A DNA stretch of 64,000 nucleotides, taken from Verrucomicrobiaceae bacterium (GTDB lineage Bacteria; Verrucomicrobiota; Verrucomicrobiia; Verrucomicrobiales; Verrucomicrobiaceae). Positions 16,414 through 47,472 of the stretch are shown here, one piece after another. Below the pieces are notes generated by a model that searched no databases, had not been told where the DNA came from, and saw nothing but the letters and a program-made list of their open reading frames with translations. Each line of letters begins with the position of its first letter. Within the stretch, counting starts at the first letter, position 1. A program made the position numbers and the translations under genes. Location: assembly GCA_027487315.1 (NCBI GenBank), contig JAIYDW010000131.1, forward strand, positions 1-64,000, in the 5' to 3' direction.

Positions 16414-18090
16414 ATGAAAGCACTCTACACCTTCCTCGTCTTTAGCTCACTTGCGCGTGCTGAAATCATTCAGACAGATCTCTGCATCTACGGTGGCACC
16501 TCTGGAGGGGTTGTGGCAGCGGTGCAGGCGGCACGAATGGGCAGGAATGTCGTGATTGCGGAACCTGGAATGCATCTTGGCGGCATGACGAGCGGCGGTC
16601 TTAGTGCGGTGGACATCGGTGATCCGCGTTCTATCGGCGGCATTGCCCGGGAGTATTTCACTCAGTTGGCTGCCACAGTCGGCGTGACCCTCGCTTGGGA
16701 TCAAGCATTCAAGGGTGATGGCGGCGGTGGCCCGGCCACCGGCGGAGCCTTTGCCATCGAACCGCACAAGGCGGAGCAGGTTTTTACCGATATGGCGAAG
16801 GAGGCAGGTGTGAAGGTGCATTTCGGAGCGCAGCTGGCTTCGGTCGAGAAGGACGGAGCACGCATCACTGAACTTGTCATGAAAAACGGCGACATCTTTC
16901 GCGCAAAGGTCTTCATCGATACGACCTACGAGGGCGATCTGATGGCGAAGGCAGGCGTAAGCTACACGCTTATGCGCGAGGGCAACGCTAAGTATGGTGA
17001 GACGCTAAATGGCATTCACTACACTGAGAAATATCTTCCGCGAACGAACCACCTCAAGCCAGGTTCGCATGGACGCGTGCCGGGAGGGCAGGGCGTTTGG
17101 GATCGAGATTTCCCGCTCGATCCGTATGTGGTGAAAGGCGATCCGAAGAGCGGACTGCTGCCGCTCATCAACGAAGGCGATCCAGGTAAACAGGGTGAGC
17201 CCGCGCCGGGTGTGCAGGCCTATTGCTTCCGGCTTTGCCTTTCCACGAATCCAGCAAATATGATCCCGATCACGGCCCCGTCGGATTACGATCCCAAGCG
17301 CTATGAGATTGTCGCCCGCTTCATTGAAGCCTGCCTCGCCATCGGCGATGACATGGATCTGCGTTGGTTCTCGAAGCACGATCCTCTTCCGAACGACAAG
17401 TGGGATTTTAATACGGCGACCTTCGGGGGCAATCTGCCCGGTGCGAGTCACGGATGGCCGGAGGCGAACTATACCGACCGCCAAAAAATCGCCAAAGAGC
17501 ATGAGAATTACCATCGCGGCCTGCTGCACTTTCTCGCTACTGATCCACGCGTACCGGAAAAGGTGCGAAAGGACATGCAGCGCTTTGGTTTGCCGAAGGA
17601 CGAGTTCACCGACAACGGCGGCTGGCCACACCAAATTTATGTGCGCCAGGCACGGCGCATGGTCAGTGACTTTGTGATGACCGAAAATCACACTTTTGGC
17701 CGACAGCCGGTGGCGAAATCTGTCGGCCTCGGCAGTTATGGTACCGACGTGCATGAGATTCGCCGCATCGTGAAGGACGGCGTGGTCGCTCGCGAGGGCA
17801 AGGTGGCCTCTGGTCGTGATGGTGCGCCACCTTATGCTGTTGGTTACGATTCCATCGTGCCAAAGCGGAGCGAATGCGAGAATCTATTCGTCACCTTCGC
17901 CCTGAGCAGCAGCCACATCGCCTTTGCCAGCATCCGCATGGAGCCGGTCTTTATGGTTACAAGCCAAAGTGCTGCCGCTGCTGCTGTGTTCGCTATGGAT
18001 AACAATCAAGCAGTCCAGGACTTGGACTATGAGACTCTCAAAACCCATCTACTCAAGCACAAACAAATGCTCGAATGGCCACCCCAATAG
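16414..18090 (+). CDS. Exported FAD-dependent oxidoreductase (FAD_oxidored, PF12831-like)
   Basis: 558 residues with a short signal-like start (MKALYTFLVFSSLARAE). The dinucleotide-binding loop YGGTSGGVVAAVQAARMG is at ~25-42 and is followed by HLGGMTSGG, the mark of this family; DTTYEGDLMAKAG and IYVRQARRMV are further family motifs and the C-terminus has SSSHIAFASIRMEP. Members probably oxidise a sugar or polyol hydroxyl with bound FAD; none of the well-known ones fixes the substrate here. It is 9 bp after the hydrolase and 38 bp before the fusion gene, whose C-terminal half is related. Confidence 0.85.
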   Translation: MKALYTFLVFSSLARAEIIQTDLCIYGGTSGGVVAAVQAARMGRNVVIAEPGMHLGGMTSGGLSAVDIGDPRSIGGIAREYFTQLAATVGVTLAWDQAFKGDGGGGPATGGAFAIEPHKAEQVFTDMAKEAGVKVHFGAQLASVEKDGARITELVMKNGDIFRAKVFIDTTYEGDLMAKAGVSYTLMREGNAKYGETLNGIHYTEKYLPRTNHLKPGSHGRVPGGQGVWDRDFPLDPYVVKGDPKSGLLPLINEGDPGKQGEPAPGVQAYCFRLCLSTNPANMIPITAPSDYDPKRYEIVARFIEACLAIGDDMDLRWFSKHDPLPNDKWDFNTATFGGNLPGASHGWPEANYTDRQKIAKEHENYHRGLLHFLATDPRVPEKVRKDMQRFGLPKDEFTDNGGWPHQIYVRQARRMVSDFVMTENHTFGRQPVAKSVGLGSYGTDVHEIRRIVKDGVVAREGKVASGRDGAPPYAVGYDSIVPKRSECENLFVTFALSSSHIAFASIRMEPVFMVTSQSAAAAAVFAMDNNQAVQDLDYETLKTHLLKHKQMLEWPPQ

Positions 18091-38234: not shown

Positions 38235-38512
38235 GGCGTGGGGTGACGCGGGAGTTTAAGGGGTGGGGGTGGGTTTTCAAATGGATAAGCGGGGGGGAGG
38301 ACGGGCGGCGGGGCCGCCGGAGATGGGAGATGGAAGATAGCAGATCGGGGAGGACGGGGAACGTTGAACTGAGGTACACCGCGGAGGTTGGATGGCCGCA
38401 GAGGAGGGGGATTACGGAGATCTTGGGAGTTGGGGTCTATTAACGGTAGAAAAAAGGGACCACGAATGGCACGAAGGACACGAAGGGGTGGGGGAGAGGG
38501 GGAGTGTGATGG
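38235..38512. other. Intergenic region with GC hairpin and CACGAA repeats
   Basis: 278 bp without a supported gene. It contains a GGCGG-CGGG-GCCGCC type hairpin near 38305-38320 and purine-rich GATGGGAGATGGAAGAT words around 38321-38345. Three in-phase 9-bp copies of CACGAANGR lie at 38461-38487. The HUMPS-family gene ends just downstream, so this is the gap between two minus-strand genes. Confidence 0.4.
38461..38487. repeat. CACGAA 9-bp tandem repeat, three units
   Basis: CACGAATGG, CACGAAGGA and CACGAAGGG follow one another in phase. Arrays of this ACCACGAATGGCACGAA kind are common between genes in Verrucomicrobiota as I know them. Here it lies 26 bp beyond the stop codon of the HUMPS-family gene. 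Confidence 0.65.
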
Positions 38513-39208: not shown

Positions 39209-39287
39209 GGGTGGTTGAAGGGTTGAGGGGCGAAATGCTTGAATGCTTGCAGAGTAGGTGGAGCGGGGCAAGGTCGGGGCGTCAAAG

Positions 39288-40094
39288 ATGATGCGAAATG
39301 CGACAGTGCTAAAGCCGAGGGAGCGTCCGCTGCGGAGCGCGGCGGAGATGCGGCGGTGGAAGAAGGTGCGAGAGCAGTGGGTGGGGGAGCTGGAGCCGAC
39401 GGGGCTGTTTCACCGGCTGTTTGATCATGTGCCGGGGGTGTACTTCTTTGCGAAGAACCGGGAGGGGCATCTGATGTTTGCGAGTGCCGGGCTTTTGCAG
39501 CGCTATCAGATGGCGGATGAGTTTGAGATTCTGGGGCGGACGGATTTTGATTTGAATCCGGACATCATGGCGCAGGCCTATGTGGATGACGACAGGTCGC
39601 TTCTGGCGGGGGAGGTGGCGAAGGTGGAGCGGATCGAGCTGTGGTGGGATCGGCAGGGGATGCCGGACTGGTTTGTGGTGACGAAGCTGCCGGTGGTGGA
39701 CAAGCGGGGTCGGGTGGCGGGGGTGATGGGGATGCTGCGGCGGCCGGATGCGGCGGAGCGGGCGCTGCCGGTGTTTCAGACGGTGGCGCGGGCGGTGGAG
39801 ATCATTCGCCGGGAGTATGCGAAGCCGCTGCTGATTGGGGATCTGGCAGCGGCTTGTGGGGAGTCGGTCAGGCAGTTGCAGCGGCGGTTTCGGGATGCGT
39901 TTGGGAGTACGCCGCAGGAGTTTTTGATCAAGACGCGGATTCTGGAGGCGGCGCGTCTGCTGGAGGAGACGACGCTGTCGGTGGCGGAGATCAGTGCGCG
40001 CTGCGGGTTTGTGGATGCGAGCCGTTTCACGCAGCACTTCCGGCGGCGGACGGGGGTGACGCCGAAGGGGTATCGGGGGAGGGTGGATCAGTAA
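39288..40094 (+). CDS. AraC-family regulator with N-terminal PAS domain
   Basis: 268 residues from ATG 39288; GTG at 39258 is an alternative. Residues ~45-145 form a PAS sensor (VPGVYFFAKNREGHLMFASAG, DWFVVTKLPVVDKRGRVAGVMG). Residues ~165-265 contain both AraC helix-turn-helix units (LIGDLAAACGESVRQLQRRFRDAFG and LSVAEISARCGFVDASRFTQHFRR). Divergent from the HUMPS-family gene with a short gap, a usual layout for local control. The stop codon lies inside a 7-bp tandem array. Confidence 0.88.
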   Translation: MMRNATVLKPRERPLRSAAEMRRWKKVREQWVGELEPTGLFHRLFDHVPGVYFFAKNREGHLMFASAGLLQRYQMADEFEILGRTDFDLNPDIMAQAYVDDDRSLLAGEVAKVERIELWWDRQGMPDWFVVTKLPVVDKRGRVAGVMGMLRRPDAAERALPVFQTVARAVEIIRREYAKPLLIGDLAAACGESVRQLQRRFRDAFGSTPQEFLIKTRILEAARLLEETTLSVAEISARCGFVDASRFTQHFRRRTGVTPKGYRGRVDQ

Positions 40095-40178
40095 TCAGTA
40101 ATCAGTAATCAGTGGGCAGTAAGTGGTAAGTGGGGAGTGGGGAGTGGGGAGTGGGGAGTGGGGAGTGGGGGGATGTGC
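40089..40178. repeat. In-phase 7-bp tandem array that starts in a stop codon
   Basis: Twelve 7-bp units follow without a phase break: CAGTAAT three times, CAGTGGG, CAGTAAG, TGGTAAG, then TGGGGAG six times, and a degenerate tail. The unit changes gradually along the array. The first unit provides the Gln codon and the TAA stop of the AraC-type regulator gene. Slippage could change the array length. Confidence 0.85.
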
Positions 40179-40183
40179 TGGGG

Positions 40184-40567
40184 TTAGTAGGGTCTGACTG
40201 GGATGACGGGGATGCCGCCGCTGACGGTGCAGATGGTGTAGACGGTTTGGCCGTTGATGTAGTAGGGGTAGTAGTAGCTGCCGCCGCAGTAGTAGAAGTT
40301 CACGCCGCGATAGGGGCGGACGACGTAGCCGCCGGGGAGGCCGTACATGTAGCGGTGGGGGTTGCGGGGATCGAAGGGGCCGCGGGGGTCGAAGGGGCCG
40401 CGAGGATCCAGGGGGCCGCGGGGGTCGAGGGCGCCACGGGGATCAAACACGCCGCGCGGGTTGCCGGGGCGATGGCGCGGGGCGGCTTCGGCTTGAGGGG
40501 TGAGGAGGGTGAGGGTGACGGCGGCTGCGATGAGCCGTGCGGTGGAACGAAGAATCGATGAGTTCAT
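40184..40567 (-). CDS. Exported small protein with DPRG pentapeptide repeats
   Basis: 127 residues from ATG 40567. The start MNSSILRSTARLIAAAVTLTLL is a signal peptide ending near QAEAAP. The middle has five in-phase five-residue repeats of the form [FL]DPRG[PA], and the C-terminus is Tyr-rich (FYYCGGSYYYPYYINGQTVY), which resembles small periplasmic or outer-surface proteins of unknown function. Located 26 bp downstream of the DUF2092 gene on the same strand. Confidence 0.7.
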   Translation of the reverse strand: MNSSILRSTARLIAAAVTLTLLTPQAEAAPRHRPGNPRGVFDPRGALDPRGPLDPRGPFDPRGPFDPRNPHRYMYGLPGGYVVRPYRGVNFYYCGGSYYYPYYINGQTVYTICTVSGGIPVIPVRPY

Positions 40568-40593
40568 GAGTGTGGGAGGATGGGGTGGGTGTT

Positions 40594-41337
40594 TCAGCGG
40601 CTTTTGAGCATTTTGACCTTGGTGGAGTCGGCGGCGGGGCGCTTGGTGAAGAGGGTTTCGTCGACCTTGGGGTTGAGTTCCCATTTGGAGAGGCGGATGT
40701 CCCAGGTGGGCTGGCCTTTGAGGTCGGTGAAGGTGAGGGTGTAGCGGCGTGGGAGGCCATCTTTTTTGCTGACCCAGAGGTCTCCGGTCATGCCGTTTTG
40801 TTTGAAGTGCAGGTGATCACAGCGGGTGAAGCCGACCCATTCGGTGCCGATGACGGAGGCGGAGGTGACATCGCGGAAGAGTTGGCTGGAGACGTCGGCG
40901 GCGAGGAGTTCGGCGACGGGGGGGCGGAAGCCGAATTGGGCGTCGATCTGGTCAGCGAATTGCTCGATGGTGGCGGCTTTGAGGGGTTCGAGGGCGTGAT
41001 GCTTGAGGGTGGGGTGCATGACGCAGACGATTTTGCCGTCGAAGGCGAGTTCGCGTGTTTCGTCGCCGGCGTTTTGGAGGACGTAGAAGTGATTGGGGCG
41101 TTTGAGGGTGATGGCGAGCGGGCCTTTTTCCAATTTGGATCCGACGCCGAGGGCGGGGTCGATGGTGTGTTTGGCGGTGAGGCGGAGGGTCTGGGCGGCC
41201 TGGAGTTTGGTGGCGACGGATTGGGCGAGGGCTTTGGCTGCGGGCTCAATTTCGGCTTGGACAGGGGACTGCAGCAGGAGGCCGGAGAGGGCGGCGGCGG
41301 CGAGGAGGTATCGAGGGGTGGAGGGCAGGGTTTTCAT
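40594..41337 (-). CDS. Exported DUF2092 (LolA-like fold) protein
   Basis: 247 residues with signal peptide ending at QSPVQAE. The body matches DUF2092 proteins, which share the LolA/LolB-type half-barrel: LKRPNHFYVLQN, ELAFDGKIVCVMHP, EWVGFTRCDHLHFKQ, DLWVSKKDGLPRRYTLTF. Perhaps binds a lipid in the periplasm; no partner gene is evident other than the small DPRG-repeat protein. A ~170-bp inverted-repeat element ends 75 bp upstream. Confidence 0.8.
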   Translation of the reverse strand: MKTLPSTPRYLLAAAALSGLLLQSPVQAEIEPAAKALAQSVATKLQAAQTLRLTAKHTIDPALGVGSKLEKGPLAITLKRPNHFYVLQNAGDETRELAFDGKIVCVMHPTLKHHALEPLKAATIEQFADQIDAQFGFRPPVAELLAADVSSQLFRDVTSASVIGTEWVGFTRCDHLHFKQNGMTGDLWVSKKDGLPRRYTLTFTDLKGQPTWDIRLSKWELNPKVDETLFTKRPAADSTKVKMLKSR

Positions 41338-41412
41338 GGGAGGGGTGAGTTTGGTTTCGTCTAAGGCTTTTAGCCCAATACTGAAGAAAAAGTCAATGGG
41401 AAGTCCTTACTT

Positions 41413-41582
41413 TAGACCGATTCTCGAAGTGCTTGTCACCTTGCCCGGCGGCGGAGCAGCTTCTTTGGCGGCGTCAGCCGCTGGCCCGTTATCTCTTTGA
41501 TAGCGGGCTGCGCGACTTCCTTGCCACTGAGTCCGCTGCGGTCGCCGGATCCAAATGACCATTCCTTTCGAGAAACGGTCTA
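41413..41582. mobile_element. MITE-like element, copy 1 (terminal inverted repeats, internal hairpin)
   Basis: About 170 bp bounded by imperfect inverted repeats TAGACCGATTCTCGAA and TTCGAGAAACGGTCTA. A central stem CCCGTTATC/GATAGCGGG is present. A second copy lies at 45724-45892 in the same orientation. The right end contains the TAG stop codon of the sulfatase gene at 41580-41582. No transposase is inside, so if mobile it must be moved in trans. Confidence 0.7.
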
Positions 41583-43109
41583 CTTGCCTTCGGCGGCCCA
41601 TTTTTTCATGAGGGCGATGTTGGCTTCGACGATGGGGTCTTTCTTTTTGAGGTATTCGGCCATGTCGCTGTCGTATTGGGCGGGGGTTTCGGGAGCGGGG
41701 TCGCGGGTGGCGGTGAGTTTTGCGTCGAGGAGCTGGCGGTGTTTTTCGAGGGTGTCTTTGAAGGTGGGGTTGGTGGCGAGGTTGGTGACTTGGTGGGGGT
41801 CCTGGAGGGTGTCGTAGAGTTCTTCGGGGGCGCGGGTGGGGCTGAAGAGGAGGTCTTCAGAGACGGAGGGGAGGGTGCCTGCGGTGTGAGCGGCGCGCAG
41901 GGCGATGAGGATGGGTTTGGCGTCTTTGTAGGCGTTGGGCTGGAGGTGGGGGCGCTGGGGGTGGCCGTTGCGGATGTAGAGGAAGCGGTCGGTGCGGATG
42001 GAGCGGAGGTTTTCGGTGGTTTCGTCACAGCGGTCGCGTGCGGCGAAGACTTCGGTGCGGGGGGTGTAGTCTTTGGCGAAGAGGTTGCGGCCCTGGATGG
42101 CGGGGGGGATGGGCAGGTGGGCGGCGGCGAGGGAGGTGGGGGCCATGTCGATCTGCTCGATGAGGTCGTCGCGGACGGTGCCTTTGGCGATGCCTGGGCC
42201 GCGCACGATGAAGGGGACGTGGGTGCCTTCGTTGTAGAGGAATTGTTTGCCACGGGCGTGGGAGATGCCGTGGTCGGTCATGAAGATGATGAGGGTGTTT
42301 TCGAGCAGATTTTCTTTTTCGAGGCGGGCGATGACCTGGCCGACGTGATGGTCGGTGAGGCGGACGGCATCTAGGTAGTCGGCCCAGTCTTGGAGGAGGA
42401 CGGGATCGCGGGGATAGTAGGGGGGGAGGGTGACTTTTTCGGGGTCGGTGGCGTTGCCGAAGGTGGCGATGACGCGTTGGCGGTAGGCGGCGCGTTTTTC
42501 CATGGGGCCTTCACGGAGTTTGCCGCCGTGGAGCTGGACCTGCATGAAGAAGGGTTTGTCACCGTGGTCGGCCCAGTCGGGGCTGTCGTAGATGGCGGGG
42601 TCCCATTCGAAGTTGTAGTCGGTCTTGCCGAGAGTGGCCTGGGTGGATTTGCCTTTTTTGTTTTTCCGTGAGGCGAGATCCTGGCCGGCGTGGTCTTTGC
42701 CGGGGAGACCGGAGCCGATGCAGGTGAAGTAGCCGGCTTTTTGGAAGAGGGCGGGGACGGGGGTGACGCCTTCGGGGAGGTGGATTTTCAGGTCGCCGCG
42801 ACCGCTGCGGTGATGGTGCGCGCCGATGGTGGTTTGATAGAGGCCGGTGATGAGGGCGGAGCGGCAGGTGGAGCAGACGGGGGCGGTGACGTAGGCGCGG
42901 GTGAAGCGGGTGCCTTCGGCGGCGAGGCGGTCGATGTTCGGGGTGGCGATGGTGGTCTCTCCGTAGCAGGAGAAGTGGGGGGACATGTCATCGACGACGA
43001 ACCAGAGGATGTTGGGGATTGCGGATTTCGGATTGGGGATTGCGGATTGGGTGTGGGCGCAAGGGGTGATCGCGAGGGTGAGGAGCAGGAGGAAGAGCAG
43101 GTGTTTCAT
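41580..43109 (-). CDS. Exported sulfatase (type I, arylsulfatase superfamily)
   Basis: 509 residues with signal peptide MKHLLFLLLLTLAITPCAHTQ. Metal-binding VVDDM follows, then the modification site VCSTCRSALITG at ~78-89: the formylglycine Cys and the Arg are there but the usual Pro/Ala is Thr. MTDHGISHARGKQ provides the Asp-His pair. Cuts sulfate esters or sulfamates of glycans; overall it resembles the group of sulfamidase-like enzymes. The segment SAIPNPKSAIPN behind the signal peptide is coded by a 7-bp repeat array. The stop codon falls in the end of a MITE-like element. Confidence 0.9.
   Translation of the reverse strand: MKHLLFLLLLTLAITPCAHTQSAIPNPKSAIPNILWFVVDDMSPHFSCYGETTIATPNIDRLAAEGTRFTRAYVTAPVCSTCRSALITGLYQTTIGAHHHRSGRGDLKIHLPEGVTPVPALFQKAGYFTCIGSGLPGKDHAGQDLASRKNKKGKSTQATLGKTDYNFEWDPAIYDSPDWADHGDKPFFMQVQLHGGKLREGPMEKRAAYRQRVIATFGNATDPEKVTLPPYYPRDPVLLQDWADYLDAVRLTDHHVGQVIARLEKENLLENTLIIFMTDHGISHARGKQFLYNEGTHVPFIVRGPGIAKGTVRDDLIEQIDMAPTSLAAAHLPIPPAIQGRNLFAKDYTPRTEVFAARDRCDETTENLRSIRTDRFLYIRNGHPQRPHLQPNAYKDAKPILIALRAAHTAGTLPSVSEDLLFSPTRAPEELYDTLQDPHQVTNLATNPTFKDTLEKHRQLLDAKLTATRDPAPETPAQYDSDMAEYLKKKDPIVEANIALMKKWAAEGK
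43016..43050. repeat. GGATTNN 7-bp tandem array inside the sulfatase gene
   Basis: Five units (GGATTGC, GGATTTC, GGATTGG, GGATTGC, GGATTGG) run in phase on the + strand. Two 16-bp copies, 43012-43027 and 43033-43048, are exact at a distance of 21 bp, so the frame is kept and the protein gains the doubled SAIPN segment between signal peptide and enzyme. Confidence 0.8.
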
Positions 43110-43166
43110 GGGAGGGAGGGGGCGGAGGGCGAGGAGGAGGAGGAGGAGGGACGGTGGGCGGGGAAG

Positions 43167-45723: not shown

Positions 45724-45892
45724 TTGACCAATTCTCGAAATGCTTGTCACATTGCCCAGCGGCGGAGCGGCCTCATTGGCTGCGTTAGCCGCTTGACCGC
45801 TATTGATTTAATAGCGGGCTGCGCGACATCCTTGCCACTGAAGCCGCTGCGCTCGCCGGATCAAAATGACCCTCTTTTCGAGAACCGGTCTA
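45724..45892. mobile_element. MITE-like element, copy 2
   Basis: 169 bp, about 85% like copy 1 by eye, in the same orientation. Ends are TTGACCAATTCTCGAA and TTCGAGAACCGGTCTA. The internal stem reads CCGCTATT/AATAGCGG: against copy 1, one pair changed C-G to T-A and one T-G to C-G, which keeps the stem. The TAG stop of pdxH (45890-45892) lies in its right end, exactly as in copy 1. Confidence 0.7.
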
Positions 45893-46643: not shown

Positions 46644-47195
46644 ATGCCTTCTATTGTCACTGGTATCATTCAAGATCTGAATCGGACGCTGATTGATGCG
46701 GCGTCGATTGAAGCGCGTGTGGCGGAGATGGCGGATGAGATTGAGCGGGATTGCGCGGGGGAGGTGCTTACGGTGGTGGCGTTGATGGATGGGTCGCTGT
46801 TTTTTGTGGCGGATCTTTTGAGGAAGATTGATTTGCCGATTCGGCTGATCACGCTGAGTGCGAGCAGTTACCATGGGGGGACGTCGAGCAGTGGGAGTTT
46901 GCGGGTGGCCTGGCCGGAGGGGATGGATTTGAAGGGGCAGACGGTTTTGCTGTTGGATGATATTCTGGATACGGGTCTGACATTGAGTGAGATTCGGCTG
47001 CACCTGGAGGCGCAGGGGCCACGGTGGCTGCGCTGCGGGGTGTTGCTGAGCAAGAAGCGGGAGCGGGCGCGGGAGGTGGTGGCGGAGTATGTGGGGTTTG
47101 AGATCGAGGATGAGTTTGTGGTAGGCTACGGGATGGATTTTGACGGGCGGTTCCGGAATCTGCCATGCATTGGGGTGCTGAAACTGGATGCTTGA
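46644..47195 (+). CDS. hpt: Hypoxanthine phosphoribosyltransferase
   Basis: 183 residues from ATG 46644, the normal length. Salvages hypoxanthine and guanine to IMP and GMP with PRPP. The PRPP loop VLLLDDILDTGLTL and the flexible-loop segment LSASSYHGGTSSSG are present, with VGYGMDFDGRFRNLP at the end. A longer upstream frame is not needed. Its stop overlaps the start of moaD by 8 bp. Confidence 0.93.
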   Translation: MPSIVTGIIQDLNRTLIDAASIEARVAEMADEIERDCAGEVLTVVALMDGSLFFVADLLRKIDLPIRLITLSASSYHGGTSSSGSLRVAWPEGMDLKGQTVLLLDDILDTGLTLSEIRLHLEAQGPRWLRCGVLLSKKRERAREVVAEYVGFEIEDEFVVGYGMDFDGRFRNLPCIGVLKLDA

Positions 47196-47445
47196 GATGA
47201 TGCGGGTGCGGGTGCTGTTTTTTTCGGTGCTGCGGGATTTGACCGGGGTGGAGGAGCTGGAGGTGGAGGTCGAGGAGGGGGTGAGGCTGGGGGGGCTGAT
47301 GGCGGGGTTGTTTGAGCGGTGGCCGAGGCTGGGGGAGTGGGATGCGAGTTTGTTGCTGGCGGTGGATCAGGAATATGCGGGGCGGGAGGTGGTTTTGAGG
47401 AGTGGGTGCGAGGTGGCGGTGATGCCGCCGGTGCAGGGGGGGTAG
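47188..47445 (+). CDS. moaD: MoaD/ThiS-type sulfur carrier
   Basis: 85 residues (82 from ATG 47197). Beta-grasp fold with the obligatory C-terminal Gly-Gly (PPVQGG) that becomes a thiocarboxylate. FFSVLRDLTG and LAVDQEYA are MoaD-like, so a molybdopterin synthase small subunit is likely. No moaE, moeB or other cofactor gene is near; it may serve elsewhere. It overlaps hpt by 8 bp, suggesting shared translation. Confidence 0.82.
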   Translation: MLEMMRVRVLFFSVLRDLTGVEELEVEVEEGVRLGGLMAGLFERWPRLGEWDASLLLAVDQEYAGREVVLRSGCEVAVMPPVQGG

Positions 47446-47451
47446 GAAGTG

Positions 47452-47472
47452 GAGAGTAGAGAGTAGAGAGAG
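47452..47472. repeat. GAGAGTA 7-bp tandem repeat
   Basis: Two exact units (47452-47465) and a third degenerate one begin 7 bp after the moaD stop codon. Period and purine-rich content match the arrays at 40089 and 43016. Confidence 0.6.

Follow-up and report, generated by a model that had tools for sequence, protein, structure and literature searches.

The heptamer array and its locus

The stretch analysed here (the window) comprises 64,000 nucleotides from a Verrucomicrobiaceae bacterium (positions 1 to 64,000 of the forward strand of contig JAIYDW010000131.1, assembly GCA_027487315.1) and is part of contig C106 of the source genome, G000, which comes from an uncultured organism and holds 5.87 Mb in 256 contigs; the genomes nearest to it are metagenome-assembled ones from Verrucomicrobiaceae. 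Between two convergent genes of this window lies a tandem array of 7-bp units (40089–40172, 84 bp, G-rich on the plus strand), and this array and the family to which it belongs are the subject of the present work. The gene on its left (plus strand, 39258–40094; start uncertain, 39258 or 39348) encodes a regulator with PAS_4 and AraC helix-turn-helix domains, which by resemblance we take to be XylR-like. The gene facing it (minus strand, 40184–40561; start uncertain) encodes a small Gly/Pro/Arg-rich protein with no Pfam match that, by the look of its N-terminus, may be secreted; an 18/36-base tandem repeat inside this gene (40364–40444) encodes GPLDPR/GPFDPR repeats, and beyond it lies the gene of a predicted periplasmic DUF2092 protein (minus strand, 40594–41337). 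The space between the two convergent stops is almost wholly occupied by the array, since its first unit, CAG-TAA-T, contains the last Gln codon and the TAA stop of the regulator, and the stop of the small-protein gene falls 11 bases past its last unit. Most likely the array has no coding role.

From 40089 to 40172 the units are three CAGTAAT, CAGTGGG, CAGTAAG, TGGTAAG, five TGGGGAG and TGGGGGG, all in a single phase. Tandem Repeats Finder (TRF) reports two perfect segments within them, 40087–40113 (unit ATCAGTA, 3.9 copies, 100%) and 40129–40170 (unit AGTGGGG, 6.0 copies, 100%). A first-pass annotation of this DNA had described twelve 7-bp units in one phase from 40089, starting in a stop codon, and the unit reading, TRF and the position of the regulator TAA bear this out; its end at 40178 lies 6 bases too far, and the drift that it saw from CAGTAAT to TGGGGAG is present but not strictly monotonic, CAGTGGG preceding CAGTAAG. 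Two lag-7 runs in the window reach 14 self-matches or more, and three first-order Markov shuffles contain 0 such runs. No Rfam covariance model matches anywhere in the window at gathering scores. The G-rich part (five TGGGGAG and TGGGGGG; plus strand, 40131–40172) is a predicted G-quadruplex (G4) former: for the RNA of 40086–40182, ViennaRNA predicts -42.1 kcal/mol with the G4 term and -11.6 kcal/mol without it.

Orthologous arrays in close relatives

The sister species G003 has 96.2% DNA identity with G000 over window positions 39575–43114, and in both genomes the regulator stop lies within the first array unit. The G003 array has 18 units (five of CAGTAAT type, CAGTGGG, CAGTAAG, six TGGTAAG, TAGGGAG, TGGTAAG, TAGGGAG and two TGGGGAG), and the length comparison that the first-pass annotation had proposed thus gives 18 units in G003 against 12 in G000. 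The order of the shared blocks is identical in the two species, and their copy numbers differ (7 TGGTAAG in G003 versus 1 in G000, and 2 TGGGGAG versus 5); the block order predates the split between them. The predicted G4 of the G003 array RNA is weaker (-20.0 versus -42.1 kcal/mol), with fewer GGGG runs, and this difference is an argument against a quadruplex role conserved at the site. Another example of change in place is found in contig C239 of G000, where a degenerate polar seed of few units (AGTAATC ... AGTGGGC AGTGGC) stands at the same place as 17 clean units in contig C18 of G003 (AGTGATC, eleven AGTAATC and five AGTGGTC). Both arrays open with AGTRATC and close with AGTGGNC AGTGGC, and either state may be the older one. 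In contig C130 of G000, seven AGT units are present versus about two in G003 and G001. Unit gain or loss in place is therefore supported by three loci, in agreement with the slippage that the first-pass annotation had invoked.

In G001, a further relative, the regulator is followed by three TTCTCGG units between related heptamers, and the genes that flank 40184–41337 are present without the two in between (small protein and DUF2092). Similarity of this genome to the window ends at 40077 and resumes at 41577, so that the array sits at a gene-content breakpoint; one edge of the gap (40078–41576) is the heptamer array, and the other lies near a dispersed repeat of about 92 bp. Among 26 relatives inspected, of 43 loci, a heptamer array right after the regulator stop was seen only in the two nearest (L093 and L122), the 3' ends of the remaining 24 being judged array-free by eye.

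Period 7 across the sampled genome

Tandem periods were surveyed by lag-p self-similarity over 929 kb of G000 (the window and 60 further stretches). Period 7 is the commonest, with 28 segments, followed by periods 21 (7 segments), 6 (6), 14 and 24 (5 each), 18 (4), and 3 and 9 (3 each); all remaining periods have at most 2 segments, and periods 4, 5 and 8 have 0, 1 and 0. At a slightly stricter threshold over 561 kb (the window and part of the further stretches), period 7 has 12 segments and any other period at most 3, and one second-order Markov shuffle of the same 561 kb has 0 period-7 segments. The general heptamer process that the first-pass annotation had suspected is upheld by this count, since period 7 (28 segments versus 7 for the next) is enriched in the genome. 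That annotation had also pointed to 7-bp periodicity at two other places of the window. The one at 43016 is a genuine 38-bp run (plus strand, 43012–43049) of ATTGCGG/ATTTCGG/ATTGGGG units, antisense within a sulfatase gene (minus strand, 41580–43109), where it contributes SAIPNPKSAIPN between a signal-peptide-like start and the sulfatase domain. The one at 47452 is real but short, a 23-bp run (plus strand, 47448–47470; AGTGGAG AGTAGAG AGTAGAG AG) directly 3' of a ThiS-family gene (47188–47445), and is not listed by TRF at a minimum score of 40.

The enrichment claim is based on this survey because loose patterns proved to have rich reversed controls too, and their counts were dropped as evidence: three NGTRRKG units give 39 matches versus 59 for the reversed control, and AGTNNNN ×3 AGT gives, against its reversed control, 232/124 matches in G000, 137/85 in G001, 15/47 in G002 and 280/200 in G003. 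We think that part of the richness of the controls comes from further heptamer classes, in which TGA recurs at intervals of 7 bases. Loss of mismatch repair was considered as a cause of the excess and is ruled out by the presence of MutS in 57 of 57 relatives, G000 included (score above the family cut-off in 56 of the 57). Loops of 7 bases escape MutS, which would explain tolerance of long units and not the choice of 7.

Unit classes shared between loci

In 1.10 Mb of G000, a set enriched for AGT arrays by targeted stretches, 67 distinct arrays were collected: 35 AGTNNNN, 18 ATTGCGG/AATGACG-like, 6 AACNTTG, 6 AGATGG and 2 GTTCTC. The class motifs are author-defined, and at least 2 of the 35 AGT arrays (L157 and L055 6463) fit only by strand chance. 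The 28 survey segments occupy 13 of 1172 possible heptamer classes, and in 62 array pairs both members have a unit class in common, against a mean of 0.76 and a maximum of 7 in 2000 trials in which one heptamer was drawn per array from its own flanks; independent local duplications would not yield such sharing. After some ATTGCGG/AATGACG-type arrays (L140 18305–18400, L057 3426–3550 and L221) comes a palindromic dispersed repeat that contains GAGGCCCGCCGGCCTCGCC or a close variant of it, and after others come GACGAG hexamer runs. Several families of short repeats thus make up a mosaic in the intergenic regions of the genus.

Polarity of unit types and position relative to genes

On the AGT strand, every one of the 12 informative arrays of G000 has its AGTRATC-type units 5' of the other, G-richer AGT-type units (AGTGGNN), separation of the two types being incomplete in L056, L062 and L209. 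A two-sided sign test gives p = 0.0005, a value weakened by a grouping of unit types chosen after viewing the arrays. The G content per unit, read 5' to 3' over the 35 AGT arrays, goes up in 21 and down in 4, with 10 uninformative. The same order was seen by eye in G001 in 12 of 12 arrays with both types, among 100 matches listed of 137; some of these arrays may have orthologues among those of G000. The 12 polar arrays of G000 are unrelated in their 200-base flanks, with 2 marginal matches (24–26 bases) on the 5' side and 0 on the 3' side. The gradient is therefore a property of the whole repeat family and not a local accident. Stop codons alone were rejected as the source of the polarity, given that the order also holds in L140, L202, L203 and L213, whose 5' edges have no same-strand stop. 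In distant lineages the order is looser, and one array of G211, from another family, runs in the opposite direction (AGTGGGG to AGTAATC/AGTGGTC).

Intergenic space holds 46 of the 67 arrays; another 13 overlap the end of a gene, and 8 are contained in a predicted gene. The 5' edge on the G-rich strand is near a same-strand stop (within -25 to +15 bases) in 25 of the 59 arrays outside genes, versus 8.1 expected from random placement within the same gaps, and in many of these 25 the stop codon touches the first unit or lies within it, the latter in the window array and several others. By comparison, 11 of the 59 have the 5' edge near an opposite-strand start (6.7 expected), 6 have the 3' edge near an opposite-strand stop (9.1 expected), and 2 have the 3' edge near a same-strand start (5.5 expected).

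Spread among Verrucomicrobiota

Three AGTRATC units followed by AGT were found in 15 of 387 sampled Verrucomicrobiota genomes, in 13 of 198 genera, and the reversed control in one genome of the 387 (G237, with 16 matches). G211 alone has 114 matches, and the 6 other genomes in this sample that belong to the window's own family have none. Three ATTGCGG units occur in 4 of 57 relatives (G000, G001, G003 and G006; control 0), and the arrays are thus not family-wide. In G351, five AGTGATC/GGTGATC arrays (L254 3284–3358; L255 2689–2734, 10595–10647, 14036–14068 and 14197–14221) have, by eye, common flanks, with GTGCCG or CCG on one side and AAGGCATCGGGGATG on the other, so that the heptamers there appear to be carried along by a larger dispersed repeat.

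Other repeats of the window

A degenerate heptamer array of the AGATGGG class can be read at 38319–38345 (plus strand). The dispersed repeat of about 92 bp is found at 41415–41506 and 45725–45817, and also at 16918–17009 of another G000 stretch (L165). It has 10 matches, the query included, in the 1.10 Mb of G000, the others being 81–95% identical, and dozens in G001 and G003. It carries internal inverted repeats (e.g., GGCGGCGTCAGCCGC), and the L165 copy has no Rfam match at E<=1. This repeat is a candidate miniature inverted-repeat transposable element (MITE) or repetitive extragenic palindrome (REP)-like element, or a small RNA.

Proposed origin and turnover of the arrays

On balance, we favour the view that the window array belongs to a lineage-specific family of heptamer arrays, non-coding and situated at gene ends, which combines turnover in place with the founding of new arrays from polar seeds. 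The excess of period 7, the block-wise copy change between species, the polarity, the shared units and the adjacency to stops are the observations on which this model is built. Copy number would change by strand slippage or unequal recombination, adjacent identical units being added or dropped as blocks while the block order is retained. New arrays would be founded from short polar seeds (AGTRATC... then AGTGGNN), alike between loci. The preferred site of the arrays is just 3' of the stop codon of a gene encoded on the G-rich strand. The seeds would most simply come from an array already present, of which a short piece is copied by way of heptamer microhomology beside the stop codon, although a sequence preference might also give rise to new arrays. 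It is possible that the G-rich transcript modestly affects termination between convergent genes.

Several points weigh against this model. No copying event with an identified donor has been caught, and the unrelated flanks fit copying of the heptamers only and, equally, repeated independent origin by sequence preference. Slippage alone leaves the unit length of 7 unexplained, given how rare periods 4, 5 and 8 are in the survey, and the presence of MutS in every relative counts on the same side. In addition, the gene calls behind the stop adjacency come from a simple predictor of our own, by which 62% of the sampled sequence counts as coding, a share below the bacterial norm.

The alternative that survives best, while still unlikely, is a selected function, in which the arrays would be 3'-end elements guarding convergent gene ends, for example through a G-rich transcript or G4 that halts RNA polymerase or through a run of stops that covers every frame (7 leaves a remainder of 1 on division by 3, and CAGTAAT contains TAA). 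The strong placement at same-strand stops, often with the stop codon in or touching the first unit, the filling of the gap between two convergent genes by the window array and the G4 predicted in its RNA are in its favour. However, G003 keeps the array with fewer GGGG runs and a predicted G4 of less than half the energy, G001 has a different heptamer at this site, more distant orthologues have none by eye, and many G-rich units are without a stop codon.

Somewhat less probable is a purely local origin, in which a 7-bp duplication at the stop codon would have been expanded by slippage and point mutations, spread in turn, would have made the gradient, as the first-pass annotation had proposed. 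The copy differences between species at the same site and the perfect repetition inside blocks (100% by TRF) agree with it, but the same heptamers recur in one order at loci whose flanks are unrelated, and AGTRATC ×3 AGT is scattered over 13 of 198 genera with a reversed control confined to one genome. The local making of the gradient is thus unsupported, because the unit order predates the split from G003 and recurs at 12 of 12 loci with unrelated flanks and in a second species, and because the units are shared.

It is improbable that a directional, sequence-preferring process writes the arrays from gene ends, AGTRATC-like units first and G-rich ones later, and that the same process or travelling seeds act across Verrucomicrobiota families, cyanobacteria and Beggiatoaceae; if true, this would account for the 7-base unit as well as for the shared vocabulary. 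Its most specific form, a telomerase-like enzyme that copies a short template at gene ends, starting with AGTRATC and drifting to G-rich units, is very doubtful. The fixed period and polarity, the small vocabulary and the patchy occurrence in distant lineages would suit such a generator, but it is not needed to explain the block-wise changes at old sites, and the G211 array runs in the opposite direction; we know of no candidate enzyme or template RNA, the related checks being those of MutS and Rfam only. An artefact of short-read metagenome assembly is hardly credible, for although G000 to G003 are drafts in hundreds of contigs, some ending near repeats, an independently assembled metagenome-assembled genome has an array at the same site with matching flanks, and the 84 bp of the window array are shorter than a usual short read.

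This genus offers pairs of close species with orthologous arrays of different length. The simple rule followed by the arrays (polarity, anchoring at stop codons and few unit types) is a constraint on any mechanism, and slippage, copying between arrays and directed synthesis thereby become testable against one another.

Comparison with known heptamer systems

Tandem heptamers at many places of the genome are known in another phylum, from the short tandemly repeated repetitive (STRR) sequences of heterocystous cyanobacteria. A literature search on heptanucleotide repeats in Verrucomicrobia found no report. Copy change in phase-variable contingency loci alters a reading frame or promoter; by its gene layout the window array is not of this kind, lying past both stops.

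The closest system is that of the G-rich heptameric repeats GGGNATC and GGGGA(C/T)T of Xanthomonas and Nostoc, which prefer stops on the coding strand and also the non-coding strand just upstream of an open reading frame (Rehm et al., 2015; PMC4692102, where Calothrix heptanucleotides are also cited). Like them, the arrays described here favour same-strand stops (25 of 59, versus 8.1 expected), vary in length at shared sites of close relatives and are G4-capable, here by prediction, and the arrays near opposite-strand starts (11 versus 6.7) echo the preference for sites upstream of reading frames. With 12 units, the window array exceeds the four tandem 7-base units that define those repeats as a minimum, but its units are GGGGAGT, one base from GGGGA(C/T)T, together with CAGTAAT and TGGTAAG. 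Mixed unit types in a fixed 5'-to-3' order, as found here, are not reported in the accessible portions of that paper (Rehm et al., 2015).

Another example is the TAACTGA direct repeats of Beggiatoaceae, Cyanobacteria and Bacteroidetes, which in the main genome mainly occupy sites just 5' of start codons and whose indels between two close Cyanothece strains are mostly 7-nt steps (MacGregor, 2015; PMC4679880). These are likewise heptamer arrays with a patchy distribution across phyla. The first block of the window array reads TTACTGA on the other strand (the reverse complement of TCAGTAA), one base from TAACTGA and itself listed in Table 3 of that paper as a single six-unit set (MacGregor, 2015). 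Unlike those repeats, whose unit is exactly TAACTGA and which mostly stand within a few bases upstream of a start codon, the arrays of G000 follow stop codons and have G-rich blocks; only 2 of 59 are near a same-strand start at the 3' edge, and the window array lies between two stops. In the portions of both papers available to us, no explanation is given for the bacterial preference for tandem units of exactly 7 bases (MacGregor, 2015; Rehm et al., 2015). To judge from these sources, the kind of repeat has already been described, and what is new here is the polar order of its units at unrelated loci.
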